DNA of 64,000 bases from Vandiemenella viatica (Eukaryota > Arthropoda > Insecta > Orthoptera > Morabidae), in the NCBI GenBank assembly GCA_031002005.1, contig JARYHS010009186.1:180012437-180076436 (forward strand). The letters run 5' to 3'. The notes beneath the pieces are model-generated. The model searched no databases, was not told the DNA's origin, and saw only the letters and a list, made by a program, of their open reading frames with translations. Positions 1 to 62,140 of this stretch are shown piece by piece (positions within the stretch are counted from its first letter, which is position 1; each line of letters begins with the position of its first letter). A program made the translations under genes and the position numbers.

Positions 1-662
1 TACTCCTCTTCAATAACTTGTTTTGGTTCTCCAAATCATTAATAGTGTTGGTCTTATCATTTGTTCACAAACTCTCCAACACTATGGTTTGTTTGCAAAT
101 GCATTGTTGTTTGGGAGAACAGTTTTTCAACACCACTGTATTGTTTTGCACTGTCTGTACACATTTTTGATGTATCATGATGAACGTATCTGTGGATGTA
201 GGGCCACAATTCCTTTTTGCTTTTGGAATTAACTTTAAAAAATAGGCCACGCTTAGTTTCTTTGCAATACAAACCCAGTACAGTTATTGTCATTTGTTCA
301 GTTAAACGGCCACGGTTATATTTTCTTTTGGTAAGAAAAGTTTCATCAATCTGCACTGTCTTACCTTCGCCGCCGAGTACCGTATCGCTGTGACACGAGA
401 TCACTTCGGCTACTTCTCTACAGTAGCTGTAGTAATCTACAAGTGTACCGCGGCTCAGTTCTTTCCCATTACTTGCACAACGCCAAGACTTGAGATTTTC
501 ATATACATCTGTTATTTTCATATCAATGACAAAACTGACAATGATGGCTACAATTTCCCGAAATGAAATTCTACAACTTGATCCGTCAAAGAATGATAGT
601 GTTGCGGCACCACTTCTTTGCGTTTTTAATTCTTCTGGAAGAACATCTCCATATCCAGCCAA
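1..662 (-). pseudogene. Merlin-type (ISXO2/IS1595-like) DNA transposase, frameshifted and cut by window edge
   Basis: The long open frame (662 to 57) has the layout of an ISXO2-like DDE transposase, which cuts and pastes Merlin transposons in animal nuclei. A first catalytic Asp lies in VQIDETFLTKRKYNRGR, then come the strand VLGLYCKETKRGLFF and a second Asp in CTDSAKQY, followed by NHSVGEF. The frame stops at 57, but the neighbouring frame continues with TINDLENQNKLLKR, which fits the region of the third acidic residue. A one-base frameshift near position 60 therefore broke the gene. The C-terminus lies beyond the window. The N-terminal zinc-binding part of the family is not clearly visible upstream of the first Met, and I did not find terminal inverted repeats. 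Family assignment is from motif recognition only. Confidence 0.72.
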
Positions 663-41963: not shown

Positions 41964-44921
41964 TTGCTTAATATTTATTTAGTTTTAAATGACTATAAAG
42001 GTTTAAATGGGGTACGACGTGTAGATAACCTCCTCGTGGTGTACCCTGGACAACGGACTGCTGATGCAGGACGGCTGATAATCTACACAATAGGCGACCG
42101 AACTAGATCCCGTATCTCTCACGGTCACACAAAGCAACATCAGAAGATGAAAAATCTGAAGATGAAATTGAACAACGGCACTTGTCAGAGCCAACTGACC
42201 AGAACGTTTGGACACAGCGCTCAGATTCTTCAAATAAATGCAGAAGGATTAACAATTGCTAAATGTGAATACCTTAGCAAACTAGCTACTGACCTCAAAA
42301 TCGACATCTTAGCTGTTCAAGAGACCCACATGACTGAAAAAGATTTGGAAAGCAGGGGCAAGATTGCAGGATACAGAATGATATCGAGAATTCCCTCTCC
42401 TATACACGGATCAGCCATGTATGCCAAAAGTAACATCTCGGAAGTGAGGTGTCAAAAAGTCAATGAAGTGGAAATAATTACTGCCAAACTCAACAATTTA
42501 ACTGTTGCATCAGTTTACAAACCACCTCTTTCCAACTGGCCAACTCCACCACTGCCCTCACTACCAAAACCTTGCATATATGTAGGAGACTTTAACAGCC
42601 GACATACATCCTGGGGTTACCCAAATTCTGATGAAAACGGTGAGAAACTCACTGTGTGGTGCGAAAGTCAAGACCTGTATCTCAGCTATGATGCTAAAGA
42701 AAAGAAAACATTCCACTCTGCTAGATGGCAATCTGACACCAATCCTGATCTGGTCTTTGTTTCCACAGATGAAAGAAAACCTTTAGACCACACAAGGAAA
42801 GTCCTTCAGCATTTTCCCAGAAGCCAACACAGGCCCACACTAATCAGTGTTGGTATCACAATACCTGTTATCAGATCAATTCATAAACCAAGATGGAATT
42901 TAAAGAGGGCAAACTGGGACAATTATAGCTCCGAGGTAGATAATAACCTGCGATGGATACCCCCAAAAGTGAAAAACTACAAGAGATTTGTAGGTATTGT
43001 TATTGCTGCAGCTAAACGAAACATCCCTCGAGGGTACAGGAAACAATACATTCCATGCTGGGACAAATCTACGCAAACTTTATATGAAAATTTTCAAAAA
43101 ACTGGTGACCCTGAAACAGGAAAAAGAATATTAGAAAAACTGAATGAAGGGAGGAAACAGAAATGGAAAGAGCTAACTTCTCAAATGAGCTTTACTCACT
43201 CCAGTAGAAATGCATGGACTCTCCTTAGAAAACTGGGTGCAGCCTCAAACATGTGCAAAGAGGAGCCAGGAATTACACCAGCTGAAATGGCATTGCACAT
43301 AAAAACAAGAGCTGACAAAGTCCCAATAGATCCTGCCATGAAGAAACAGATGGAGAAAGAGATGATTGAAATGGATAACAACCTTAGAAATAATCCTATC
43401 CTTTCTAATCCATTTAGTCATGAAGAAGTTGAGAAAGCCATCAAAATGCTAAAAATGAGGAAGGCTGCAGGGTTAGATGGCATTTTCCCAGAATTCATAA
43501 GATATCTCGGCAAGCAGGGAAGAACTTGGCTCAAGAACTTCTTCAGTGATATCCTGGACACTGGGATAGTCCCCCCAGAATTTAAGATGGCTCACACCTT
43601 GACGATCCTCAAACCAGGCAAACCAGCAGATGATGCTTCAAGCTATCGACCTATTGCTCTACTCAGTGTTTGCTATAAGCTTCTAGAACGCCTCATCCTT
43701 AACCGCATACAAGGAATAATAAATATCATAACACCAACATATCAGGCAGGTTTCAGACTAAAACGGAGCTGTTGTGAGCAAGTATTAGCACTGACATCAT
43801 ACATTGAGGCTGGATTTCAGAAGAAGTTAAAAACATCAGTAGCCTTTGTCGATTTAACAGCGGCATATGATACAGTTTGGCTGGATGGACTGCTACTTAA
43901 ACTTAAAAAACATATACCCTGCAGGAAACTAACATCACTCCTGAGGAATATGCTGACCAACAGATATTTTAAGGTCACCGTCGGACATAAGACAAGTAAG
44001 TCATTTACAATAAAAAATGGATTACCTCAAGGGTCAGTACTAGCTCCATTGCTCTTCAACTTGTACACCAGTGACATGCCAGAAACAACCGGCAATAAAT
44101 TCTGCTACGCTGACGACTTAGCTATCGCCGTCCAAACTGCCACATTAGAGGAAGGTGAGAGCATTCTCTCTAACGACTTAGAAACCTTGAACACATATTA
44201 TAGAAAGTGGAGACTTTGTCCGAACCCAATGAAAACAGAAGTATGCGCATTCCACTTGAGCAATAGAATAGCACATCAGCAGCTCAAAGTGAACTTCTGC
44301 CACCAGAGGGTGAAACATAATTTCCATCCTAAGTATCTTGGCATCACCTTAGACCGCTCCTTAACATTCAAAAAACACCTCGAAAACACAAGTCAGAAAC
44401 TGAAAACACGAAACAACATCATGAAGAAGCTAGCTGGTACTTCATGGGGAGCTGATGCGAACACACTACGAACAACCGCTCTCACCATGGTTTACCCTGT
44501 TGCTGAGTACTGTGCTCCAGTGTGGCAACGTAGTACTCATACTAGAAAAATCGACGTCCACCTGAATGAGTGTATGAGAGTAATAACTGGCACCCTAAAA
44601 TCCACCCCAGTCCCCTGGTTGCACCTGATCAGCAAAATACCACCTCCAGAGATAAGACGCCAAGAAGCAACGGCACGTGAGTGGATAAAACTACACCATC
44701 CTGATCATCCACAGGATCTCCCAATCCACGAGGTTCTAAATAACTTACCACCCACTCGTCTTAAATCAAGAAATCCGGTATGGCAAGATGTATTTGACTT
44801 TGATGTCATGGAAAAATGGCGACAAAGCTGGAACTCCACATCTGTAAAACATTCAGATATTAAAGATCCCACAACTGGACTTCCAGGATTCCATCTAAAT
44901 AGAGACCATGGGTCAAACTAA
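41964..44921 (+). CDS. Non-LTR retrotransposon ORF2: AP endonuclease plus reverse transcriptase, 985 codons, open
   Basis: Encodes the enzyme that nicks target DNA and reverse-transcribes the element's RNA in place. The endonuclease domain begins with ILQINAEGLT (about residue 90) and has the catalytic Glu in AVQETHM and the Asp in YVGDFNSRHTSWGY. The reverse transcriptase (about residues 490-750) shows AAGLDGIFPEF, YRPIALLSVCYKLLERLI, AFVDLTAAYDTVW, NGLPQGSVLAPLLF and the catalytic FCYADDLAIA, then the thumb region YLGITLDRSLTF. No internal stop or frameshift was seen. The first Met is not certain; translation may begin later. No gag-like ORF1 is present upstream, so the copy is 5' truncated or of a single-ORF type. 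The frame's end is altered by an insertion described next. Clade not assigned. Confidence 0.9.
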   Translation: MLNIYLVLNDYKGLNGVRRVDNLLVVYPGQRTADAGRLIIYTIGDRTRSRISHGHTKQHQKMKNLKMKLNNGTCQSQLTRTFGHSAQILQINAEGLTIAKCEYLSKLATDLKIDILAVQETHMTEKDLESRGKIAGYRMISRIPSPIHGSAMYAKSNISEVRCQKVNEVEIITAKLNNLTVASVYKPPLSNWPTPPLPSLPKPCIYVGDFNSRHTSWGYPNSDENGEKLTVWCESQDLYLSYDAKEKKTFHSARWQSDTNPDLVFVSTDERKPLDHTRKVLQHFPRSQHRPTLISVGITIPVIRSIHKPRWNLKRANWDNYSSEVDNNLRWIPPKVKNYKRFVGIVIAAAKRNIPRGYRKQYIPCWDKSTQTLYENFQKTGDPETGKRILEKLNEGRKQKWKELTSQMSFTHSSRNAWTLLRKLGAASNMCKEEPGITPAEMALHIKTRADKVPIDPAMKKQMEKEMIEMDNNLRNNPILSNPFSHEEVEKAIKMLKMRKAAGLDGIFPEFIRYLGKQGRTWLKNFFSDILDTGIVPPEFKMAHTLTILKPGKPADDASSYRPIALLSVCYKLLERLILNRIQGIINIITPTYQAGFRLKRSCCEQVLALTSYIEAGFQKKLKTSVAFVDLTAAYDTVWLDGLLLKLKKHIPCRKLTSLLRNMLTNRYFKVTVGHKTSKSFTIKNGLPQGSVLAPLLFNLYTSDMPETTGNKFCYADDLAIAVQTATLEEGESILSNDLETLNTYYRKWRLCPNPMKTEVCAFHLSNRIAHQQLKVNFCHQRVKHNFHPKYLGITLDRSLTFKKHLENTSQKLKTRNNIMKKLAGTSWGADANTLRTTALTMVYPVAEYCAPVWQRSTHTRKIDVHLNECMRVITGTLKSTPVPWLHLISKIPPPEIRRQEATAREWIKLHHPDHPQDLPIHEVLNNLPPTRLKSRNPVWQDVFDFDVMEKWRQSWNSTSVKHSDIKDPTTGLPGFHLNRDHGSN

Positions 44922-48238: not shown

Positions 48239-48921
48239 CTAGTCTTGGAACTTCGTGCGGGCTTCCTCTACTCTGTTGAAGAATTTTTCGGTTGATTGGA
48301 AGATTTGTGTATGGATATTTGGAATATTTGTGACGTCATGGAGGAGCTCTGTTGGAGTGAAGTGAACCCTGTGATCATTAGGAGAGTCTTATTCTGCAGT
48401 CTCTGAATATGTATTCTGTTGGAGTGGCTGGTCGTTCCCCAAGCTTGGCAACTATATAAGATGAGAGGAACAATGATTGATTTGTAAATGCTGATCTTGG
48501 TTTAATAAATTTAGGTTTCTCGCTCCTCAGGATCGGTGTAAGGTTCATCGTCACTGCTAGCCCTTTTTTTCTCCGGTCTAGCACATGTTGACGAAAGAGA
48601 AGTTTGTTGTCAAGTATTATGCCCAGATATCGAGTCTCTGTCACCCATGGAAGCTTGTGGCCCATTGTTTCTAGCTGTTTAAGGAGTACTGGTCTTTCCT
48701 TGAGAAAATACATTGCAGAACATTTCGTAGGGTTGAGTTTGACTTTATTTACTCTGCACCATTTATCAAAAGCGTCCAAGCCTTTTTGAGCGTTTTGGAT
48801 ATTACGTGCGTGGTTTCCTCCGGTCGAGTAGATGACCGTATCGTCAGCGAATTGAGCCATAAGTACGTGAAGAGGTAAGGGTATGTCGTTAATGTAGATT
48901 TTGAAAAGAGTAGACGCAATT
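48239..48921 (-). pseudogene. Jockey-clade LINE ORF2, 3' part (second half of reverse transcriptase)
   Basis: Begins at the insertion site with STLFKIYINDIPLPLHVL and the catalytic AQFADDTVIYS. It continues through WCRVNKVKLNPTKCSAMYF and RYLGIILDNKLLF, and then in a shifted frame NRIHIQRLQNKTLLMITG. After a second shift it ends FFNRVEEARTKFQD, stop at 48241-48239. Two frameshifts make it non-functional. The first half lies 11.3 kb away at 60199-62140. Confidence 0.92.
48916..48921 (+). repeat. Target-site duplication, left copy (GCAATT)
   Basis: Exact match to 60193-60198. Collapsing the two copies joins the LINE frame perfectly across GSVIA and STLF. Confidence 0.95.
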
Positions 48922-48959
48922 AGTAGTGTGGAATTGAGAGAGCGAGCTCAAAATAGACC

Positions 48960-49325
48960 TGTCAATCATTTTCACACCTCTATTGTTCTCCCCCCTCCCA
49001 CCTGTCAATCATTTTCACACCTATTGTTCTCTCCCCTCCCACTTGACTTGAGGGCCACTTGACTAACCGCTTGACATGAGGACCACTTGAGCGACCCAGG
49101 TGTGTCACGGTCCTTTGTTGTCCTCCCCTCCCCCCCCCCACCTGTCAATCATGGGCCACTTGACTAACCACTTGACTCGAGGGCCACTTGAGGTACCCAG
49201 GTGTGTCCCCACCTGTCAATCATGGCCACTTGTTTGAACACCTGCCTTCCCTAGCACCAGCTGCCCTTGGTGTTTTTTTTTTTTTTGTTAGGCCACTTGA
49301 GCGACCCCAACCCCGCCAGCTGCAT
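48960..49325. repeat. Subterminal CACTTGA-rich repeats, left arm
   Basis: Repeated phrases CACCTGTCAATCATTTTCAC, CCACTTGACTAACCACTTGA and GCGACCCAGGTGTGTC alternate with C-rich runs. The mirror block is at 59760-60160 with several small indels. Confidence 0.85.
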
Positions 49326-49429
49326 CGTTTCATCGACTGGTTTGAACATGCTCACCCCCCACCACCGCTCCAACAAGCAGGACTGCCCCCCGACCGGCCT
49401 GCTGACCTCAGTGTTCAGCCATGTCTCGC

Positions 49430-49585
49430 CCAGTACTGTTGTTCAGACGGCGATTCGAACCAGAGCCCTCCTAAATGCTTGGTCATTGCGTGCTAGTATG
49501 GTGTTACACATCGTTGTCATTAGAGGTGGTGAAAGAAAAAGGCTACCTGGAGTGAATCTAGGTTTCTATAGCGTATGTGGCGTTA
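49430..49585 (-). mobile_element. tRNA-like SINE fragment, left arm
   Basis: On the - strand it has B box GGTTCGAATCGCC, then ACTAGCACGCAATGACC and CCACCTCTAATGACAACG. It resembles a rearranged SINE-A. The right arm carries it twice in tandem. Confidence 0.6.
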
Positions 49586-49700
49586 CTACGGGGCGTTTTA
49601 ATATTCCAAGAAATACGAGTACCAATACTCTCGACCCTTTACACTAACGCTCACAGCTTCAGTTCATATTCCAACAGCCTCCTATTCATGAATAAAAAAA

Positions 49701-50597
49701 ATGAAAATATTAGTATTTTTTAAAAATTTATTGGGTAAATCGTGAGGCCGCGTTTTTACAATAATCACGATATAAAAATAATTTTTGTATCTATTATGCC
49801 AAGAGTAGAAATTAAATGTTTAATATTACGTGAAATGAAATTTTGCCTTCCCTCCCACCGGCCGCCAAGAGTCTATTGTGTGTGAATGGACCCTTACTTG
49901 ACATATGAATAGGAGGACCGGCTGCCTCACGCAACTAAATTTACTACGAACTAATGAAAATATTAGTATTTAAAAAAAATTTATTGGGTAAATGGTGAGG
50001 CCGCGTTTTTACAATAATCACGATATAAAAATATTTTTTTTATCTATTATGCCAAGAGTAGAAATTAAATGTTTAATATTACGTGAAATGAAATTTGGCC
50101 TTCCCTCCCACCGGCCGCCAAGAGTCTATTGTGTGTGGGTGAACCCTTACTTGACATATGAATAGGAGGACCGGCTGCCTCATGCAACTAAATTTACTAC
50201 GAACTAATGAAAATATTAGTATTTAAAAAAAATTATTGTGTAAATCGTGAGGCCGCGTTTTTACAATAATCACGATATAAAAATAATTTTTGTATCTATT
50301 ATGCCAAGAGTCGAAATTAAATGTTTAATATTACGTGAAATGAAATTTTGCCTTCCCTCCCACCGGCCGCCAAGAGTCTATTGTGTGCGAATGGACCCTT
50401 ACTTGACATATGAATAGGAGGGGCCGGCTGCCTCACGTAACAAAATTTAATACGAACTAATGAAAATATTAGTATTTTTAAAAAATGTATTGGGTAAATC
50501 GTGAGGCCGCGTTTTTACAATAATCACGATATAAAAATAATTTTTGTATCTATTTTGCCAAGAGTAGAAATTAAATGTTTAATATTACGTGAAATGG
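49701..50597. repeat. 253-bp tandem array, left arm, about 3.5 units
   Basis: Unit starts at 49701, 49954, 50207 and 50460, exactly 253 apart. Each unit has ATGAAAATATTAGTATTT, GTGAGGCCGCGTTTTTACAA, TAATCACGATATAAAAATA, CCACCGGCCGCCAAGAGTC and ACTTGACATATGAATAGGAG. The last unit is partial. Confidence 0.95.
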
Positions 50598-50732
50598 GCT
50601 TTCAGAGAGAGATTTGTTTAAAGGCATTAATTCTTAACTTAAGAAAGAAACATCATTGGTTTAAATCGCATTTTATTAAGCGCTCAATATCGAGTATATT
50701 GCTTATTCCCGGACCTAGACAGCTTTGGCTAT

Positions 50733-50930
50733 TTATTCAAAAAATGAATCAAATCCATTGCGGTATCGTCCATGATACATGTCGCTGTCCTTGTCAATAA
50801 CCACAAATCCATGCTTGCTTGTATTCCAGCAGGAACTACATAGGTTTTTTAAACTCGTTGAATGGCATGTCAGTATTAACGTGGTCATTGTAAATGTGTC
50901 TGAGATTCATGTCGTCCTGTTTAAATAAAC
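50733..50930 (-). pseudogene. Packaging-ATPase-like C-terminus relic, left arm
   Basis: From 50910 on the - strand one frame reads MNLRHIYNDHVNTDMPFNEF. After a frame change, another reads HGFVVIDKDSDMYHGRYRNG and closes at 50735-50733. This order and wording resemble the end of the A32-like DNA-packaging ATPase of Polintons, as far as I recall the family. The Walker motifs are missing because the sequence is cut off upstream by a stop and a SINE. The shift lies at the A-run before CCTATG. Confidence 0.6.
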
Positions 50931-50998
50931 TTTATAGGCAGGTAGGTGATTTCACTGCAGGTCTATATATATCCGTCTTCCTTTCAGAGGTACTTTTT

Positions 50999-51180
50999 CT
51001 TCTTCCTGGTGGGTGAGTTTGTTAACGTTCGGGGGCTGCCATGTGGGAGATGGAGGGTTCGATTCCCGGTCCGCATGTTAATTAGTATCTGTTGTAGTTT
51101 AGACCCACAAATAGCTGTTTATAGCCAAGAGTCACTGCGAACACTCCGACAACGAAAAAAAATAAAAATAAAACGTGTTT
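50999..51180 (+). mobile_element. SINE-C copy, left arm
   Basis: A third tRNA-like family: GGTGGGTGAGTTTGTTAACG, B box GGGTTCGATTCCCGGTCC, AGTTTAGACCCACAAATAGC and an A-rich AAAAATAAAAATAAAA tail. It is mirrored at 58038-58212. Confidence 0.75.
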
Positions 51181-51310
51181 AGTGGTGTTTGTTCCTGTAG
51201 CCAGGGATGGTAACGCGATGTGTGTGGTGGGGAGTTCTACAGGTTTATCTGTTCGAATACCTGTGCCAGTGATGTATATTCATAGATCCTCCTATGTTAC
51301 CACTTCTCAT

Positions 51311-51485
51311 TCATGTTGAGGGGTGACTGTAAAATTCTTGAAATACAGATATTTGCGCGGGTTTAGCGAATGCGTGCCTCAATTTCACAATAATTGTTTG
51401 TGCATAACTGCGATAAGTTCGGCGAAAGACGTTTGTGACGGCGAGTGTTTTGGACAAAGTTTTGTGCATATTCTTACGGCTCATA
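51311..51485 (-). other. Open frame shared by both arms, function unknown
   Basis: The frame includes MHKTLSKTLAVTNVFRRTYR and KLRHAFAKPAQISVFQEFYS and is present identically in the right arm (57729-57901). It may be a remnant of an element gene; I do not recognise it. Confidence 0.25.
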
Positions 51486-51722
51486 CCGAGCGTGGTGGGT
51501 GAGCGGTTAACTCTCTGGCCTCGCATTCGGGAAGGACGCGGGTTACGAACCCCCGTCCAGGCATCCAGATTTGGGTTTTTAATGGTTTACCTAAATCATT
51601 CCAAGCGAATGCCGGGGTGTTTCCTTCAAAAAGGCGATGGCCGAATACCTCCCCGTTCCTTGTCTCCAGTCACATCCCGCCTCTAATGACCTCGACTTAG
51701 ACGAGGCGTAAAACCATAAGTA
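51486..51722 (+). mobile_element. SINE-A copy, left arm
   Basis: Among the best preserved copies: GTGGTGGGTGAGCGGTTAAC, CATCCAGATTTGGG, AAGGCGATGGCCGAATACC, CCTCTAATGACCTCGAC and GACGAGGCGTAAAACC. Confidence 0.92.
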
Positions 51723-51947
51723 AAAAGAAAAAAAAATCTTAATGCCCAGTAACGTTTTCCTTTACTTTAGAATTACCGTTAATATTTTCTATTGTAGAGA
51801 CTAAATGCTGATCAGTGCAGAAATGATTACATTCGGCCACGTTTCAGACGATGCAGGTTTAATTTCGAGACTGGCTGGTGAATTTTTAATGTTCGGCAGT
51901 GTCATACAGGTGATTTCGTGTTTTTTCTTCAATGCATTCCACACTTA

Positions 51948-53716
51948 CACTGATCGGCCGGAACATTATAACTACCAACCGACTATCGATATAAACCCGT
52001 CCAGGTGAAAGCAGCGTCACGAGGAATGGCTGCTAGTCAGACACACGCATGCTGCATGTAGTATCAGTGAGCGCGCTATCAGTGTTTAAAATGGGGAAGG
52101 CTTGCGATCTATCTAAGTTTGACCCATTGCAGATTGCGATGGCCCAGAGGCTCGGCACGAGCATTACGGAAACTGCACTATATATCGGGTGTTCGAGCAG
52201 TGTTGCGGTGAGTGTCTTCAACAAGTGGCGAAACGAAGGTGACACCATGTCCTAAACGTCGAGTAGTTGGGTGGCCATCCCCCCTATTTCACATGTCTGA
52301 CGTCGTAGGCTGGGCAGACGTAAAACAGGACAGGCGGCGGGGCGAACTGTGACGGAACTAACATCAGACTTTAATGTTGGGCAGCAGTACAAGTGTACCT
52401 GAACACACAGTGCACCGAACACTCCTAACGATGGGTCCTCCGCAGCCGACGACCCATGCATGTGCACCACGACATCGGCAACTGAGACTGAAATGGGCAC
52501 GAGACCATCGTCACTGGACGTTGGCGTAGTGGCAGATCGTTGCATGGTCTGATGAATTCCGATACCTTCTTCATCATGCCGGAGTAAGGGTGCGAGCTGG
52601 TCGTTTTCTACGGGAAAAGCTTCTTGTCACCTGTACTGCGGGGAACATTCACGTGGGAGCTCGTGCAAGGCACTGTGACGACCGATAAGTATCGTACACT
52701 GGTTGCAGACCACTGTACAGCACAAACCTTCATGACGACCATGTTTCCCAACGGCTGTGACATTTTTCAACAAGATAATGCGCCATGTCACAAGGCCAGA
52801 AGTGTAACTTAATGGTTCGAGGAACACAGTGGCGAGTTGTAATTGATGTACTGGCTCGCCAGCTCGCCAGATCTGAACCCGATCGAACACATCTGGGGTG
52901 TGATTTGGGGAAGGCTTGCGATCTATCTAAGTTTGACCCATTGCAGATTGCGATGGCCCAGAGGCTCGGCACGAGCATTTCGGAAACTGCACTATATATC
53001 GGGTGTTCGAGCAGTGTTGCGGTGAGTGTCTTCAACAAGTGGCGAAACGAAGGTGACAGCCATGTCCAAACGTTGAGTGGTTGGCGGCCACCCCTTTTTA
53101 CACATGTCGGACGTCGTAGGCTGGGCAGACGTAAAAACAGGACAGGCGGCGGGCGAACTGTGGCGGAACTAACATCAGACTTTAATGTTGGGCAGAGTAC
53201 AAGTGTACCTGAACACACAGTGCACTGAACACTTCTAACGATGGGCCTCCGCAGCCGACGACCCATGCATGTGCACCACGACATCGGCAACTGCGACTGA
53301 AATGGGCACGAGACCATCGTCACTGGACGTTGGCGTAGTGGCAGATCGTTGCATGGTCTGATGAATTCCGATACCTTCTTCATCATGCCGGAGTAAGGGT
53401 GCGAACTGGTCGTTTTCTACGGGAACAGCTTCTTGTCACCTGTACTGCGGGGAACATTCACGTAGGGGGCTCGTGCAAGGCACCGTGACGACCGATAAGT
53501 ATCGTACACTGGTTGCAGACCACGTACAGCACAAACCTTCATGACGACCATGTTTCCCAACGGCTGTGACATTTTTCAACAAGATAATGCGCCATGTCAC
53601 AAGGCCAGAAGTGTAACTTAATGGTTCGAGGAATACAGTGGCGAGTTGTAATTGATGTACTGGCTCGCCCAGCTCGCCAGATCTGAACCCGATCGAACAC
53701 ATCTGGCATGTGATTG
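51948..53716 (+). mobile_element. Tc1-like transposon with tandemly duplicated transposase, left arm
   Basis: The 5' terminal repeat CACTGATCGGCCGGAACATT follows a TA dinucleotide. The transposase begins at 52091: helix-turn-helix region with KFDPLQIAMAQRLGTSITET and VFNKWRNEG, DDE segment with WSDEFRYLLHHAGVRV, CDIFQQDNAPCHKA and SPDLNPIEHIWGV. Stops and frameshifts abound. The segment 52093-52906 is repeated as 52907-53716 with a period of 814. The 3' terminal repeat is absent. The same element, single copy, is in the right arm. Confidence 0.9.
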
Positions 53717-54249
53717 AATATGGCGTCAACCAAACGAGGTGAAACAACGTATATGCATGCAGAAACTGACATTACATGGAAGGCAGTCTGCATTCATATA
53801 ACTTTCGTGGATTAGGATCATGAAAACAGGTAAAACATCACCACAATTATGTAATTTCACTATACGAAAGATGTCATCGGTTTAAATGGTTAGAAGGTAT
53901 CCATCATGCCATACGATGTGCATTGAGTGCATCCACCAAAATAGAAAAACCCACGGCATGATGCGGTGTATCGTCATAAATGAAACTCATTCTGTTCACG
54001 ACCCTATATACAACTCGAGTAGTACATCTGATATATCTGTCGAAAGTCACACTAAAGTATTTGAAGCTGAACTAAACAGAGCATGCAGAAGATGACAACA
54101 TCACAAGTTTACGACCCTCCGCAAGGCCGAAACATAATGCACTCAACTCCAGACGAAACATAAAATATGTTACATATCAGTTAGTATGTGCCACTTTCGA
54201 TGAATTTCATTTAAAAAAGTGTAAAAATATTTAATAGCAGTCCATACCA
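53717..54249. other. Unassigned inner arm segment, left
   Basis: Conserved in both arms (mirror 55780-56310). A + frame, 53886-54095, reads CIECIHQNRKTHGMMRC but is not recognised. No transposon ends seen. Confidence 0.35.
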
Positions 54250-54482
54250 TTTATGGTTCTACGCCTCGTCGACATCGAAGCCTTTAGAGGCGGGAAAGGA
54301 CAGTGGGACGAGGAACGGGAAGGAATTTCAGGCCATGGCAAATGAAGAAATCATCCCCCGGCGTTCGCATCGCGTTATTTGGGGGGAAACCATGGAAAAC
54401 CCAAATCTGGATGCCCGGACGGGGGATTCGAACCCGCACCCTCCCAAATGCTAGACCAGATCTTTATCGATCACGAGGCGTG
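54250..54482 (-). mobile_element. SINE-A copy, left inner arm
   Basis: On the - strand: B box GGGTTCGAATCCCC, CATCCAGATTTGGG, TTCCATGGTTTCCCCCC and 3' end AGGCTTCGATGTCGACGAGG. Mirrored at 55548-55778. Confidence 0.9.
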
Positions 54483-54604
54483 ATAGGACTGGTGTGACTG
54501 AATTACATCTGGTGTGCATGCGAGATATAGACTGAATGTGACTGTGATTCGGTGTGATATGATGGCTCCACGTATCAACATCGATTCTGCTGGTTTGAGC
54601 AGTT

Positions 54605-54790
54605 TCATAATGTTTGCCTGCACCTACAGAAATTCGGTCTAGAGATACTTATATAAAATTCGTTAACTCTATGAAACCCCCACAGTTTCAAACAGTATGG
54701 TAGGTTTAAAATGCGCTTTAAATAGTTGTATAAAGCGGAGTAGAGAAGTATCTCGTTGACCTTTCTACACTGAGGCTGTACTGATTTCAT
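54605..54790 (-). CDS. 61-codon open frame next to the loop, left arm
   Basis: Starts MKSVQPQCRKVNEILLYSAL and ends RPNFCRCRQTL. The right-arm copy (55278-55463) differs at one residue (N for K after FHRV). Basic, Cys-containing and of unknown function. Both copies stay open, but 61 codons can stay open by chance at this divergence. Confidence 0.3.
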   Translation of the reverse strand: MKSVQPQCRKVNEILLYSALYNYLKRILNLPYCLKLWGFHRVNEFYISISRPNFCRCRQTL

Positions 54791-54924
54791 TACGAATTCA
54801 CCATTCCTCAGTTTAGGTACCCTAAATTACAAGATTTATAACCCTGGATACTACATGGTTGTGAAAAGTGTGAATAATACACACATAGAAAATTATCAAC
54901 ACACACTAGGTGTACTGTGGGATA

Positions 54925-55143
54925 GTAATACTGAGTTAGGTCACGACAACAAGTTGTCATATGCCATTCTCATGGCACCACTGATACATGGAAATCCAAA
55001 AGTGCCTATGGAGCCGGCGTGGGGGGCCCCACAGTAAGCGGCTACTGCGTAGAATAAAAACAAACGCGTTGCATCCGGAAAAACGGCGCGCAAAATTTCG
55101 ATCTTCTTAGGCCGCGCAAAATGCCGGGCTCATTAGTACGCGG
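54925..55143. other. Unique loop at the palindrome centre
   Basis: 219 bases without an inverted partner. A + frame entering from the left arm runs through it (HDNKLSYAILMAPLIHGNPK ... WGAPQ, stop at 55035-55037). The right half is GC-richer, with CGGCGCGCAAAATTTC and GGCCGCGCAAAATGCC. Confidence 0.9.
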
Positions 55144-55277
55144 TATCCCACAGTACACCTAGGGTGAGTTGATAATTTTCTATGTGTGTATTATTCACAC
55201 ATTTCACATCCATGTAGTATCCAGGGTTATAAATCTTGTAATTTAGGCTACCTAAACTGAGGAATGGTGAATTCGTA

Positions 55278-55463
55278 ATGAAATCAGTACAGCCTCAGTG
55301 TAGAAAGGTCAACGAGATACTTCTCTACTCCGCTTTATACAACTATTTAAAGCGTATTTTAAACCTACCATACTGTTTGAAACTGTGGGGGTTTCATAGA
55401 GTTAAAGAATTTTATATAAGTATCTCTAGACCGAATTTCTGTAGGTGCAGGCAAACATTATGA
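55278..55463 (+). CDS. 61-codon open frame next to the loop, right arm
   Basis: Mirror of the frame at 54605-54790, with one amino-acid difference. Function unknown. Confidence 0.3.
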   Translation: MKSVQPQCRKVNEILLYSALYNYLKRILNLPYCLKLWGFHRVKEFYISISRPNFCRCRQTL

Positions 55464-55547
55464 AACTGTTGAAACCAGCAGAACCGATGTTGATACGTGG
55501 AGCCATCACATGCACACCAGATGTAATTCAGTCACACCAGTCCTATC

Positions 55548-55778
55548 ACGCCTCGTGATCGATAAAGATCTGGTCTAGCATTTGGGAGGGTGCGGGTTCG
55601 AATCCCCCGTCCGGGCATCCAGATTTGGGTTTTCCATGGTTTCCCCCCAAATAACGCGATGCGAACGCCGGGGGGATGATTTCTTCGTTTGCCATGGCTG
55701 AAATCCTTCCCGTTCCTCGTCCACTGTCCTTTCCCACCTCTAAAGGCTTCGATGTCGACGAGGCGTAGAACCATAAAT
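55548..55778 (+). mobile_element. SINE-A copy, right inner arm
   Basis: Mirror of 54250-54482. B box GGGTTCGAATCCCC and 3' end CGATGTCGACGAGGCGTAG are intact. Confidence 0.9.
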
Positions 55779-56310
55779 GGTATGTACTGCTATTAAATAT
55801 TTTTACACTTTTTAAATGAAATTCATCGAAAGTGGCACATACTAACTGATATGTAACATATTTTATGTTTCGTCTGGAGTTGAGTGCATTATGTTTCGGC
55901 CTTGCGGAGGGTCGTAAACGTGTGATGTTGTCATCTTCTGCATGCTCTGTTTAGTTCAGCTTCAAATACTTTAGTGTGACTTTCGACAGATATATCAGAT
56001 GTACTACTCGAGTTGTCATATAGGGTTGTGAACAGAATGAGTTTCATTTATGACGATACACCGCATCATGCCGTGGGTTTTTCTATTTTGGTGGATGCAC
56101 TCAATGCACATCGTATGGCATGATGGATACCTTCTAACCATTTAAACCGATGACATCTTTCGCATAGTGAAATTACATAATTGTGGTGATGGTTTACCTG
56201 TTTTCATGATCCTAATCCACGAAAGTTATATGAATGCAGACTGCCTTCCATGTAATGTCAGTTTCTGCATGCATATACGTTGTTTCACCTCGTTTGGTTG
56301 ACGCCATATT

Positions 56311-57267
56311 CAATCACATGCCAGATGTGTTCGATCGGGTTCAGATCTGGCGAGCTGGGCGAGCCAGTACATCAATTACAACTCGCCACTGTGTTCCTCG
56401 AACCATTAAGTTACACTTCTGGCCTTGTGACATGGCGCATTATCTTGTTGAAAAATGTCACAGCCGTTGGGAAACATGGTCGTCATGAATGTTTGTGCTG
56501 TACGTGGTCTGCAACCAGTGTACGATACTTATCGGTCGTCACGGTGCCTTGCACGAGCCCCCCCATGTGAATGTTCCCCGCAGTACAGGTGGCAAGAAGC
56601 TGTTCCCGTAGAAAACGACCAGTTCGCACCCTTACTCCGGAATGATGAAGAAGGTATAGGAATTCATCAGACCATGCACCGATCTGCCACTACGCCAACG
56701 TCCAGTAACTATGGTCACGTGTCCCATTTCAGTCGCAGTTGCCGATGTCGTGGTGCCCATGCATGGGTCGTCGGCTGCAGAGGCCCATCGTTAGGAGTGT
56801 TCAGTGCACTGTGTGTTCAGGTACACTTGTACTCTGCCCAACATTAAAGTGTGATGTTAGTTCCGCCACAGTTCGCCCGCCGCCTGTCCTGTTTTTACGT
56901 CTGCCCAGCCTACGACGTCCGACATGTGTAAAAAGGGGTGGCCGGCCAACCACTCAACGTTTGGACATGGTGTCACCTTCGTTTCGCCACTTGTTGAAGA
57001 CACTCACCGCAACACTGCTCGAACACCCGATATATTGTGCAGTTTCCGAAATGCTCGTGCCGAGCCTCTGGGCCATCGCAATCTGCAATGGGTCAAACTT
57101 AGATAGATCGCAAGCCTTCCCCATTTTAAACACTGATAGCGCGCTCACTGATACTACATGCAGCATGCGTGTGTCTGACTAGCAGCCATTCCTCGTGACG
57201 CTGCTTTCACCTGGACGGGTTTATATCGATAGTCGGTTGGTAGTTATAATGTTCCGGCCGATCAGTG
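56311..57267 (-). mobile_element. Tc1-like transposon, single transposase copy, right arm
   Basis: The terminal repeat CACTGATCGGCCGGAACATT starts at 57267 on the - strand, beside TA. Transposase start is at 57124, with KFDPLQIAMAQRLGTSISET and the DDE segments in decayed frames. It lacks the 814-bp duplication of the left arm. The 3' junction (TGTGATTGAATATGGC) is identical in both arms, so the truncation predates the palindrome. Confidence 0.88.
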
Positions 57268-57497
57268 TAAGTGTGGAATGCATTGAAGAGAAAACACGAA
57301 ATCACCTGTATGACACTGCCGAACATTAAAAATTCACCAGCCAGTCTCAAAATTAAACCTGCATCGTCTGAAACGTGGCCGAATGTAATCATTTCTGCAC
57401 TGATCAGCATTTAGTCTCTACAATAGAAAATATTAACGGTAATTCTAAAGTAAAGGAAAACGTTCTGGGCATAAGATTTTTTTTTTCTTTTTACTTA

Positions 57498-57726
57498 TGG
57501 TTTTACGCCTCGTCTAAGTCGAGGTCATTAGAGGCGGGATGTGACTGGAGACAAGGAACGGGGAGGTATTCGGCCATCGCCTTTTTGAAGGAAACACCCC
57601 GGCATTCGCTTGGAATGATTTAGGTAAACCATTAAAAACCCAAATCTGGATGCCTGGACGGGGGTTCGTACCCGCGTCTTCCCGAATGCGAGGCCAGAGA
57701 GTTAACCGCTCACCCACCACGCTCGG
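57498..57726 (-). mobile_element. SINE-A copy, right arm
   Basis: Mirror of 51486-51722 with a handful of substitutions. Confidence 0.92.
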
Positions 57727-58037
57727 TATGAGCCGTAAGAATATGCACAAAACTTTGTCCAAAACACTCGCCGTCACAAACGTCTTTCGCCGAACTTATC
57801 GCAGTTATGCACAAACAATTATTGTGAAATTGAGGCACGCATTCGCTAAACCCGCGCAAATATCTGTATTTCAAGAATTTTACAGTCACCCCTCAACATG
57901 AATGAGAAGTGGTAACATAGGAGGATCTATGAATATACATCACTGGCACAGGTATTCGAACAGATAAACCTGTAGAACTCCCCACCACACACATCGCGTT
58001 ACCATCCCTGGCTACAGGAACAAACACCACTAAACAC

Positions 58038-58212
58038 GTTTTATTTTTATTTTTTTTCGTTGTCGGAGTGTTCGCAGTGACTCTTGGCTATAAACAGCTA
58101 TTTGTGGGTCTAAACTACAACAGATACTAATTAACATGCGGACCGGGAATCGAACCCTCCATCTCCCACATGGCAGCCCCGAACGTTAACAAACTCACCC
58201 ACCAGGAAGAAG
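58038..58212 (-). mobile_element. SINE-C copy, right arm
   Basis: Mirror of 50999-51180, with B box inverse GGGAATCGAACCC. Confidence 0.75.
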
Positions 58213-58279
58213 AAAAAGTACCTCTGAAAGGAAGACGGATATATATAGACCTGCAGTGAAATCACCTACCTGCCTATAA

Positions 58280-58479
58280 AGTTTATTTAAACAGGACGAC
58301 ATGAATCTCAGACACATTTACAATGACCACGTTAATACTGACATGCCATTCAACGAGTTTAAAAAAACCTATGTAGTTCCTGCTGGAATACAAGCAAGCA
58401 TGGATTTGTGGTTATTGACAAGGACAGCGACATGTATCATGGACGATACCGCAATGGATTTGATTCATTTTTTGAATAA
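58280..58479 (+). pseudogene. Packaging-ATPase-like C-terminus relic, right arm
   Basis: Frame one (58301 on) has MNLRHIYNDHVNTDMPFNEF. The other frame ends HGFVVIDKDSDMYHGRYRNG with its stop at 58477-58479. The same frame break as in the left arm is present, and the A-run has one extra A here. No Walker motif is left. Confidence 0.6.
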
Positions 58480-58613
58480 ATAGCCAAAGCTGTCTAGGTC
58501 CGGGAATAAGCAATATACTCGATATTGAGCGCTTAATAAAATGCGATTTAAATCAAAGATGTTTCTTTCTTAAGTTAAGAATTAATGCCTTTAAACAAAT
58601 CTCTCTCTGAAAG

Positions 58614-59260
58614 CCCATTTCACGTAATATTAAACATTTAATTTCTATCTTGGCAAAATAGATACAAAAATTATTTTTATATCGTGATTATTGTAAAAAC
58701 GCTGCCTCACGATTTACCCAATACATTTTTTAAAAATACTAATATTTTCATTAGTTCGTAGTAAATTTTGTTACGTGAGGCAGCCGGCCCCTCCTATTCA
58801 TATGTCAAGTAAGGGTCCATTCGCACACAATAGACTCTTGGCGGCCGGTGGGAGGGAAGGCAAAATTTCATTTCACGTAATATTAAACATTTAATTTCGA
58901 CTCTTGGCATAATAGATACAAAAATTATTTTTATATCGTGATTATTGTAAAAACGCGGCCTCACGATTTACACAATAATTTTTTTAAAAAAATACTAATA
59001 TTTTCATTAGTTCGTAGTAAATTTAGTTGCATGAGGCAGCCGGTCCTCCTATTCATATGTCAAGTAAGGGTTCACCCACACACAATAGACTCTTGGCGGC
59101 CGGTGGGAGGGAAGGCCAAATTTCATTTCACGTAATATTAAACATTTAATTTCTACTCTTGGCATAATAGATACAAAAATTATTTTTATATCGTGATTAT
59201 TGTAAAAACGCGGCCTCACGATTTACCCAATAAATTTTTTAAAAATACTAATATTTTCAT
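58614..59260. repeat. 253-bp tandem array, right arm, about 2.5 units
   Basis: The anchor CACGTAATATTAAACATTTA recurs at 58621, 58874 and 59129. One unit fewer than the left arm. Confidence 0.95.
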
Positions 59261-59393
59261 TTTTTTTATTCATGAATTCATGAATTCAACTGAAGCTGTG
59301 AGCGTTAGTGTAAAGGGTCGAGAGTATTGGTACTCGTATTTCTTGGAATATTAAAACGCCCCGAAGTAACGCCACATACGCTATGGAAACCTA

Positions 59394-59651
59394 GATTCAC
59401 TCCAGGTAGCCGTTTACTTTCACCGCCTCTAATGACAACGATGTGTAACACCATACTAGCACGCTATGACCATGCATCTAGGAGGGCTCTGGTTCGAATC
59501 CCCGTCTGAGCATCCATATTCAGATTCACTCCAGGTCGCCGTTTACTTTCACCGCCTCTAATGACAACGATGTGTAACGCCATACTAGCACGCTATGACC
59601 AATCATCTAGGAGGGCTCTGGTTCGAATCCCCGTCTGAACAACAGTACTGG
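59394..59651 (+). repeat. 129-bp tandem duplication of a tRNA-like fragment, right arm only
   Basis: Two units start GATTCACTCCAGGT at 59394 and 59523. Each contains CGCCTCTAATGACAACGATG and B box GGTTCGAATCCCC. The left arm has a single unit. Confidence 0.88.
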
Positions 59652-59759
59652 GCGAGACATGGCTGAACACTGAGGTCAGCAGGCCGGTCGGGGGGCAGTC
59701 CTGCTTGTTGGAGTGGTGGTGGGGGATGAGCATGTTCAAACCAGTCGATGAAACGATGC

Positions 59760-60170
59760 AGCTGGCGGGGTTGGGGTCGCTCAAGTGGCCTAACAAAAAA
59801 AAAAAAACACCAAGGGCAGCTGGTGCTAGGGAAGGCAGGTGTTCAAACAAGTGGCCATGATTGACAGGTGGGGACACACCTGGGTACCTCAAGTGGCCCT
59901 CGAGTCAAGTGGTTAGTCAAGTGGCCCATGATTGAAAGGTGGGGGGGAGGGGAGGACAACAAAGGACCGTGACACACCTGGGTCGCTCAAGTGGTCTAAC
60001 AATAGAGGGGAAACTGAGGTTAGTCAAGTGGCCCTCATGTCAAGTGGTTAATCAAATGGCCCTCAAGTCAAGTGGGAGGGTAGAGAACAATAGGTGTGAA
60101 AATGATTGACAGGTGGGAGGGGGGAGAACAATAGAGGTGTGAAAATGATTGACAGGTGTATTGTGAGATC
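59760..60170. repeat. Subterminal CACTTGA-rich repeats, right arm
   Basis: Mirror of the left block, longer by small local duplications around GGTTAGTCAAGTGGCC. Confidence 0.85.
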
Positions 60171-60192
60171 GCTCTCTCAAATCCACACTACT

Positions 60193-60198
60193 GCAATT
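60193..60198 (+). repeat. Target-site duplication, right copy (GCAATT)
   Basis: Identical to 48916-48921. Confidence 0.95.
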
Positions 60199-62140
60199 AC
60201 CGAGCCTTGCGGGATTCCAGCAGTAATTGTGTGAGTTGCAGATTTTTGGCCTTCAACTTGTACGAAGAATTTTCTATTTTTTAGGTAGCTTGCAATAAGT
60301 ACGATGTAGAATTCCGGAATATCTGTTTGATTATATAGTTTATCAATTAATTTAGTGTGCAAGACTTTAACGTAGGCTTTTTCTATTTCAACGAAATAGA
60401 AGTTGATTTTTTCCAGATGAAACCTTTGCTTATATGCTCCGTTAGTCACACTATCTGGGTTGTGGCTCCTACACGGTTTTCAAAGCCGAATTTTTCGTGT
60501 CGGATGGTGTGTCCAAACTCCAAACTGGTATTAATTCTTTTTAGCAGTAGCCGCTCTAGTATTTTGGAAGGAGCAGACAGTAAACTAATCGGTCTGTAAT
60601 TACTTGGGTTTTGCTTATCTTTACCCCTTTTTGGAAGCGCGATGACCTTTGCAGTTTTCCATATCGATGGGTAGTAGTGTTGAAGCAGGCAGGCGTTAAA
60701 GATTCTGGTAAGTAGTACAATCCCTTTACTTGGTAGATGCTTAAGGTGGAAGTTGCCAATACCGTCATACCCTGGAGATTTTTTGGTGGCTAGTTTTCGT
60801 ATTACAGCTCTAACTTCCCTGGGGGTTGTTAGTTCCGGTTGGTCGGAAGGTGGTCTGCTAAGTTTTTCTGCAACTCGTTGAGTAGATATGGCCACCTCCA
60901 GTTCTTCAGCTGGGGTCAGTTGATAATCTTTTGCTGTATTTTGAGCTGCAAAATGTTCTGCCAAGATTTCTACTTTACCCAGTGAGAGGAAGCACGGACC
61001 TGCAGGGCCATTTATAGGAGAAGTGGCTTCGCGTGGTTCTCGAAGGGCACGGATTAGTTGCCACGCCTCCCTATTTTCCAGCATTAGTTGAGACATTTTT
61101 TCCTCCCATCTTTCTGAGCTCCTTTCTTTCAGCCGAGCGGTGAGTTGGCGGGAGTAATGGCGATTTCTACGGCGGTCGGCTGGATCGCGGAAACGTTGCC
61201 AGAGTAGCCTATAGCGGTTCCGTAAATACCTAATATCTTCAAGAATATCAGGTAGTCTCTGTTGATATTCATCGTTGCGTGAGGTGGTAATTGATGCTCT
61301 TCTGTCAGCCTCCTTAACTACGTTGGTAAAATGACTGATGGCCTTTTCTATCAATTCTGGTGTTGAAAGGTTGACGGTAGGCATAATCTTGTTATGGACC
61401 AATCTTGAGAAAAGATTCCAATCTGTCTCCTTGGTGCTTTTTGGTGACTGGTTTAATAAGATAAAATTCCTGAGGTTTATTAGCACCGGGTTGTGATCAG
61501 ACGATAGATCCGACATAGATTTGAGTTGGACTCTATGAGTGATGTTCTTGAGTAGTGCGATGTCTAGGACATCAGGTTGTGCTCGCTGTGAATTAGGGAT
61601 ATATGTCGGCTCCGTAGGTCCTAGGACGTCTATGTTCCTCCTGCCAGCAAGTTGGAGAAGACGTTCCCCTTTTGGGTTATTTGAGCGGGAGTTCCAAGCT
61701 GTATGTTTGCTGTTTAAGTCTCCACCAATGATGATTTTGTTTCCTTTCGAAATTAATTCATCAAGGTCGTGTTCAATGATATTTCTGTTAGGAGAGAGAT
61801 ATGCTGAGATTAAGACAATGTGCCCCTCTTTTGAGTGAATCTTGACTGCTGTAGCTTCTAGTTCTATTAGGTTTAACGGTTGGATGGCTGTATGCGTTAT
61901 AGATTTCTTGATTGCTATGGTGGTGCCGCCGCCCCTTTGGCCTATTCTGTCAGTGCGATGTATCTGAAATCTTGATAGGCTGAATTTATCATTAGGCTTT
62001 AGATGTGTTTCAGTTAGCAGAATAACGTTAATATTATGTCGGTTGACGAAATCTAGGAGTTCAAGTTTCTTGTTTTTGATTCCATTAGCATTCCATATTG
62101 TTATGCTTAGGTCACGATGTGACTGTGGATTTGTGGCCAT
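60199..62140 (-). pseudogene. Jockey-clade LINE ORF2, 5' part (endonuclease and first half of reverse transcriptase)
   Basis: Start codon at 62140. The AP-type endonuclease shows ITIWNANGIKNKKLELLDFV, the catalytic LLTETHLKP, IIIGGDLNSKHTAWNS and the histidine segment LSSDHNPVLINLRN. The reverse transcriptase begins with KKSPGYDGIGNFHLKHL and YRPISLLSAPSKILERLLL. A stop near 60446 marks a frameshift; the next frame carries FVEIEKAYVKVLHTKLI and AGIPQGSVIA, where the palindromic element interrupts. The wording WNANGI and the paired ORF1 zinc knuckles place it in the Jockey clade. The enzyme would nick DNA and reverse-transcribe the LINE RNA, but this copy is broken three times. Confidence 0.93.

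Follow-up and report, generated by a model that had tools for sequence, protein, structure and literature searches.

Protein-primed linear genomes can turn into palindromes that carry the same end twice: the symmetric recombinants (SYREC) and snap-back DNA of adenoviruses are of this kind, and they are sporadic by-products in infected cells. Here, we analyze an 11.3-kb element, E0, located at positions 48922-60192 of a 64,000-nt stretch (the window) from the 3.7-Gb genome of Vandiemenella viatica; E0 reads nearly identically on both strands, and we compare it with the closest described systems, as presented in the consulted parts of the cited sources. Vertebrate Mavericks (Polintons) most commonly have the ends 5'-(AGT)2//(ACT)2-3' and 6-bp duplications (PMC8097293), and intact copies have terminal inverted repeats of 46-1447 bp (PMC8097293; PMC10045372). 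Among Foldback elements, Tetris and Tm1, which are of the Mutator kind, are flanked by duplications of 8-10 bp, and Galileo by those of 7 bp (PMC4079207, PMC3169594, PMC3573991). The IS3EU and GingerRoot elements combine 6-bp duplications with a DDE transposase gene and mostly TA..TA ends (occasionally TG..CA in GingerRoot) (PMC10045372). Replicating snap-back genomes are documented for the adeno-associated virus (PMC8235507). Among the open-licence PMC papers listed by our searches (capped at 7-20 rows), no title or abstract opening describes a palindromic Polinton or a palindromic transposon with a protein-primed B-family DNA polymerase (pPolB).

An earlier note on this DNA, made from the letters alone, had suggested a self-comparison of E0, which was performed by BLAST on 48-61.5 kb and complemented by a global alignment of the arms. 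Both analyses resolved a left arm at 48922..54924 (+ strand, 6003 bp) and a right arm at 55144..60192 (- strand, 5049 bp), which is an inverted copy of the left arm, and self-BLAST placed a loop of 219 bp at 54925..55143; the two inverse arms of about 5-6 kb around a 219-bp loop, as the earlier note had it, were thus recovered to the base. The arms are 98.34% identical (81 mismatches in 4877 aligned columns), with 22 indels, five of which measure 37-815 bp. An 815-bp tandem duplication and one additional 250-bp repeat unit are found in the left arm only, and extras of 129 bp and 37 bp in the right arm only. The divergence between the arms is uneven, 3.5% near the ends versus 0.6% in mid-arm (p 2.5e-5), a figure that includes a badly aligned cluster at 49665-49673.

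Both termini of E0 are exact, AGTAGTGTGG / CCACACTACT. The terminal motif AGTAGT (48922..48927, + strand) matches the Maverick motif of PMC8097293, and the terminal sequence at the other end reads ACTACT (60187..60192, + strand). The element is bordered by exact 6-bp target-site duplications, GCAATT at 48916..48921 and at 60193..60198, and an exact 6-bp match of the flanks is expected by chance at a single locus with a probability of about 2.7e-4. The host is a long interspersed nuclear element (LINE) on the minus strand, with its endonuclease and the start of its reverse transcriptase (RT) upstream of the insertion (60446..62140) and the remainder of the RT frame on the opposite side (48378..48860); its nearest named proteins are from insects and a spider. 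When the flanks are joined through one GCAATT, an open minus-strand RT frame results, ...TAGIPQGS|VIASTLFKIYINDIPL... (motif GIPQGS|V); apart from this, the LINE has its own frame break near 60446. The exact ends, the exact GCAATT flanks and the restoration of the host frame upon collapsing the duplication, all proposed in the earlier note, were confirmed, and we consider the structure and the family of E0 near certain.

The genome was then found to contain more elements of this type. The first 301 bases of E0 produced at least 57 matches (best 40 of 1079 candidates scored), and seven related elements were fetched, all of which have long inverted arms and are wholly or partly palindromic. It should be noted that six of the seven were picked because two ends stood in inverse orientation, and therefore they are not a random sample. 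Inverted arms are found in C5:13.04 (11263 bp), C4537:115 (9573 bp), C2233 (15883 bp), C6490:46.8 (9662 bp) and C4537:280; C5206:2.07 (14423 bp) has partial arms, and C8:321.6 (8620 bp) has no loop. Flanks were counted for E0 and six sisters (C4537:280 was left out), and exact 6-bp repeats were detected in five of the seven elements, namely E0 and four sisters (GCAATT, AGCGTC, TATCGG, AACTAG and TGCGAT); the flanks match at 5 of 6 bases in C5206:2.07 and at 4 of 6 in C2233. The end motif is AGTAGG or AGTAGA in some sisters. The pattern AGTAGNNNGTAAAC was also tried as a search probe and proved useless (1098+1150 matches versus 1357+1361 in the control). Two further observations concern this group. 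A 283-aa open frame is present in C2233 (L015/L016), where it is identical in both arms, and nearly whole in C4537:280 (L019/L020); searches of Pfam and PDB gave it no convincing relative, and the protein database contains none at E 0.001. Stretches L023, L024, L027 and L028, each picked on one E0-like end, form a subfamily with the ends AGTAGGTATAAAAGG or AGTAGGGATAAAAGG and an A/T-rich, TATA-box-like stretch in the first 15 bases.

Near the apex, each arm of E0 contains a 26-codon relic of pPolB, at 54752..54829 (+ strand; a stop inside; tblastn identity 73%, E 2e-6) and at 55239..55316 (- strand; stops inside; 73%, E 5e-6). The left copy reads 'LVDLSTLRLY*FHYEFTIPQFRYPKL', compared to 'ILDLSKLRMYRFHYEFAIPQFRSPKL' in pPolB, and the copy at 55316-55239 is nearly identical. 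The relic is directed towards the apex, like the intact pPolB gene. The same relic was found in five pieces of four sisters (L009, L010, L012, L014 and L021) using tblastn with eight pPolB queries; 20 shuffles of one of these queries yielded no match. As a separate observation, a 25-residue pPolB-like match with an insertion lies close to element ends in L015, L016, L023, L024 and L028.

Intact polymerase genes were found in palindromes elsewhere in the genome. A search for the polymerase family PF03175, in which 91 of 1591 candidates were scored, gave at least 91 pPolB matches, and 89 of these 91 are stop-free within the match. Neighbors less than 15 kb apart form 13 pairs (26 of the 91 matches), and all 13 pairs are convergent. 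Four of them were read: C1:187.31 Mb (11548 bp, CTCGGC on both sides, outer arms 99.1% identical), C4537:228.63 Mb (15068 bp, TATAGT on both sides, outer arms 98.9%), C6:27.75 Mb (14602 bp, flanks AATAAC, arms 98.6%) and C7729:123.96 Mb (arms 98.8%; its left end is not fixed, and it was left out of the flank counts). The outer arms of the first two were compared over 3.3-3.8 kb. The center pieces of all four are palindromic, with no loop (98.7%, 96.1%, 92.7% and 96.5%, respectively). In the gene-bearing elements, pPolB is present in one copy per arm and is read towards the apex. An endonuclease-VII-like stretch lies upstream in the polymerase frame; of three pieces, one exceeded the Pfam cut-off for it and two fell just short, and the stretch was also matched with PHROGs in two pieces. 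The pooled ratio of nonsynonymous to synonymous changes (pN/pS) of the polymerase pieces is 0.19; this value comes from nine of the ten top-scoring loci (L030 was left out), the pairs are not independent, and the copies were chosen by score.

The ends of the polymerase elements were analyzed in the same way, using two terminal queries (best 40 of 852 and best 40 of 758 candidates scored), which gave at least 110 and at least 56 matches, respectively. Inspection by eye revealed at least 10 convergent pairs within 16 kb for the first query and at least eight for the second. We examined the flanks of all 10 pairs of the first query, five of the eight pairs of the second, and C6:27.75, i.e., 16 pairs in total; three convergent pairs in which the matches begin inside the end (C6:142.28, C5:11.41 and C1:139.53) were left out of the counts. 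There are nine pairs with exact 6-bp direct repeats, three with mirrored flanks and four with unmatched flanks, and seven of the nine pairs with exact duplications are inverted at the arms or at mirror probes. No match was found in viral contigs, either in a scan with the exact terminus or in a comparison with a pPolB piece.

The comparison with Polintons cuts both ways. E0 shares with them the (AGT)2//(ACT)2 ends, the 6-bp duplication and pPolB, which is a 26-codon relic in E0, and an open frame in the pPolB palindromes. In this respect, the earlier attribution of the 6-bp duplication and AG...CT ends to the Polinton/Maverick type is upheld, within what the consulted parts of PMC8097293 describe. 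However, E0 is nearly all inverted repeat (arms of 5049-6003 bp, loop of 219 bp), whereas the 46-1447 bp repeats of Mavericks surround a unique interior, and pPolB occurs twice in the palindromes. No Polinton domain, including the rve-type integrase, was found in five E0 frames given to Pfam, out of 15 stop-to-stop frames of at least 75 aa, and five frame pieces of three pPolB copies (C1, C4537:228 and C7729:163.7) given to Pfam showed neither an integrase nor a capsid or ATPase domain, the short frames of the center pieces being unscanned. All 102 candidates for the A32-type packaging ATPase in the genome were scored, and a single broken match was found; therefore, the pPolB elements look unlike ordinary Polintons. 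We did not file E0 as a Polinton, because the gene set (rve-type integrase, capsid, ATPase and protease, of which capsid and protease were not searched genome-wide) and the short terminal repeats were looked for and not found. As for the full-length Polintons with the same ends that the earlier note had suggested looking for, pPolB palindromes with similar ends and 6-bp duplications were found, without the usual gene set in the pieces scanned. The suggestion of a new non-autonomous palindromic form stands insofar as E0 is a non-autonomous palindrome with Polinton-type ends; its part about a single palindromic derivative does not, since seven sisters and four gene-bearing pairs are palindromic too. 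Judging from sequence, E0 very probably belongs to the class of pPolB palindromes, and it is likely to be a non-autonomous, decayed member of this class, one that appears to work like a Polinton yet does not show the gene set of one.

For the history of the palindrome, we compared the arms module by module. In six of seven modules, an E0 arm is closer to some sister arm than to its partner within E0, and, for this reason, the palindrome is probably older than the insertion of E0, with patchy copying from arm to arm. In all seven modules, the E0 arms are closer to each other than to the mean sister arm, and the same was found in 17 of 20 element-module cases across all elements. The module trees agree only in part with the nearest-arm comparison. 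The center of E0 lies within about 110 bp of that of C5, which is also the center of C8. C8:321.6 has the same duplication of about 648 bp and the same 2.0-2.2-kb deletion in both arms, with matching break points, which indicates that arm-to-arm copying happens; the uneven divergence of the E0 arms fits patchy copying as well, with the badly aligned cluster as a caveat.

We therefore favor, as the likely explanation overall, that E0 is a real non-autonomous palindromic element, whose kin carry pPolB in each arm and would replicate through a hairpin. E0 would most likely have entered the LINE already palindromic, by an integrase-like staggered 6-bp cut acting at the AGTAG...CTACT ends. A displaced single strand could fold on itself into one long hairpin that is open at one end only, at which pPolB would prime and copy the whole strand; if the whole strand is copied from one open end, a replicon needs no more than a single arm and a single end sequence. 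The AGT repeated at the terminus might serve a jump-back start, which is known for adenovirus. Within the hairpin, one arm might occasionally be copied onto the other by mismatch repair or template switching. Candidate sources of the enzyme making the 6-bp cut are the unassigned N-terminal part of the polymerase frame, the endonuclease-like stretch, or a protein acting in trans. What we infer here is replication as a hairpin, priming by a protein and where the integrase comes from, and for the hairpin or snap-back step the chances appear to be about even. A broader proposal is more tentative: such elements may constitute a separate order, hairpin-genome transposons, each of which would be a single palindrome throughout, with a single gene (pPolB fused to an endonuclease-VII-like domain) present in both arms; each strand would be a complete self-complementary one-origin replicon, and no encoded retroviral-type integrase would be needed, E0 being a non-autonomous member. 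The origin and persistence of long foldback arms are not settled; an answer suggested by pPolB in each half is that the palindrome is itself the replicon. If true, capsid and packaging genes could be dispensable for a transposon with Polinton-type ends and polymerase, a point of relevance to whether Polintons are viruses or transposons; the hairpin-replication mechanism is testable in Vandiemenella viatica.

In addition to the missing gene set, several observations weigh against this reading. The polymerase link of E0 consists of the 26-codon relic only, and its ends resemble those of the two polymerase elements compared at the first bases only, as judged by eye. There is no scored neighbor for 65 of the 91 pPolB matches, and no scored partner for 20 of the 40 scored ends of the first terminal query; since most candidates were unscored, these unpaired matches and ends neither show nor exclude non-palindromic copies. 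Six further stretches picked on one E0-like end (L023-L028) have no partner end within 8-10 kb; in one of them, L026, the far side carries a 1.2-kb inverted repeat (97.7%). Two elements with exact duplications, C7:303.02 and C6:258.70, are not palindromic at the probes used, and a center probe was inverted in one of four and in three of four elements of two probe sets. C7:303.02 has center-type sequence in the place expected for the right arm and looks like a palindrome minus one arm. C6:258.70 Mb has C1-type ends, the exact duplication ACTGAT and a left probe 100% like C1; its right and central probes match none of the eight polymerase-type stretches compared, and it is possibly a non-palindromic member or a nested insertion. 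In 7 of 20 element-module cases, the two arms of an element match each other more closely than the nearest sister arm does (patchy homogenization), a comparison that also weakened the idea that arms are re-made identical at each insertion. Finally, the flanks of the pPolB-type pairs are not uniform. Both ends are resolved in five pPolB pairs, of which two (C6490:180 and C8746, also members of the 13 pairs) have no matching duplication; together with C4515 and C7:18.87, they are the four of 16 pairs with unmatched flanks, and their right flanks recur beside another element, as seen by eye. Host flanks are mirrored at three of the 16 loci (C8:22.46, C979 and C5:105.58), which look like assembly fold-overs, the other possibility being real inverted duplications that include host DNA. 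The assembly is therefore unsafe around such repeats, and every palindrome of this genome needs to be judged by its flanks.

Judged in this way, E0 passes. A fold-over, the artefact of which the earlier note had warned, would give mirror-image flanks like those of the three loci above; the flanks of E0 are directly repeated, they are opposite halves of one LINE whose frame is restored, and the palindrome ends exactly at the duplication. The arms are also structurally unlike, with arm-specific extras of 815, 250 and 129 bp, the 815-bp duplication being in one arm only. Because of the unmirrored host flanks and the different arm structure, an assembly fold-over at E0 is very unlikely, its probability being close to negligible. 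It is also improbable that the palindrome formed in place, by inverted duplication and gene conversion after a non-palindromic insertion. The target duplication alone proves only the insertion of two ends, and both the uneven arm divergence and the greater closeness of the E0 arms to each other than to the mean sister arm would suit such an origin; against it, sister elements inserted elsewhere have almost the same center of symmetry, and in six of seven modules an E0 arm has its closest counterpart in a sister element. The same nearest-arm comparison argues against a one-off snap-back derivative of a normal linear Polinton, as the earlier note had it. The Maverick ends, the 6-bp duplication and the pPolB relic would all be expected of such a derivative, but eight related palindromes (including E0) and the gene-bearing palindromes are not, and the single broken A32 ATPase match speaks against a normal Polinton parent; we consider this origin distinctly improbable.

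The alternative of an ordinary Foldback-type transposon, mobilized by a cut-and-paste transposase in trans and with the pPolB relic as captured DNA, is unlikely as well, if less so than the preceding ones. E0 has the long inverted repeats and the internal tandem repeats of variable number that characterize Tetris, Tm1 and Galileo in the consulted parts of their descriptions; with its 253-bp repeats and long arms it is reminiscent of Tetris and Galileo, E0 is gene-poor, and its link to pPolB is short. However, the duplications of E0-type elements are 6 bp, and not the 8-10 bp of Tetris and Tm1 or the 7 bp of Galileo, the ends are different and match those of Mavericks, and the arms are several-fold longer than those of Galileo. 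Moreover, independent palindromes with similar ends have an open pPolB frame in each arm: the gene-bearing pairs read here are palindromic, with a polymerase in place of a transposase, whereas the longest arms of Galileo are in gene-less copies. Other systems agree with E0 in single features. IS3EU and GingerRoot have the 6-bp duplication, but their described termini are mostly TA..TA, and those of E0 are AG..CT. The snap-back genomes of the adeno-associated virus, as far as PMC8235507 was consulted, are likewise self-complementary, symmetric and capable of replication; however, they are parvovirus genomes in particles, and not a chromosomal transposon family.

The arms of E0 contain several other repeats. 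There are 3.5 copies of a 253-bp tandem repeat in the left arm (49700..50596, + strand) and 2.5 copies of a 255-bp repeat in the right arm (58616..59261, + strand). The 129-bp tandem duplication of the right arm is at 59393..59638 (+ strand), and the duplication of about 815 bp of the left arm is at 52092..53715 (+ strand). A dead Tc1-like transposase relic was identified by tblastn with P0001 at 52139..53739 (+ strand), where it is partly duplicated, and at 56288..57076 (- strand); it has stops in both arms, its closest protein is P0001 (52% identity), and its nearest named proteins are from spiders and fishes. We considered that the arms were host DNA captured in one event, and this idea was dropped because the sister elements share arm modules, including the Tc1-like one. 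Two repeats resemble short interspersed nuclear elements (SINEs). The first, tRNA-like by eye, is at 51514..51719 (+ strand), with its right-arm copy at 57495..57698 (- strand); the second is at 54251..54460 (- strand) in the left arm and at 55569..55776 (+ strand) in the right arm. Scans of the window with Rfam (gathering threshold) and for tRNAs gave no match, and copies of the SINE-like repeats with 66-80% identity are found at other window positions.

Two other mobile elements were noticed in the window. A transposase fragment similar to IS1595/ISXO2 (PF12762) at 57-662 (- strand) probably derives from a Merlin-type element, Merlin being linked to IS1595 in the consulted part of PMC10045372. 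A second LINE at 41964-44921 (+ strand) has a 985-codon open frame with endonuclease and reverse transcriptase and is apparently young.

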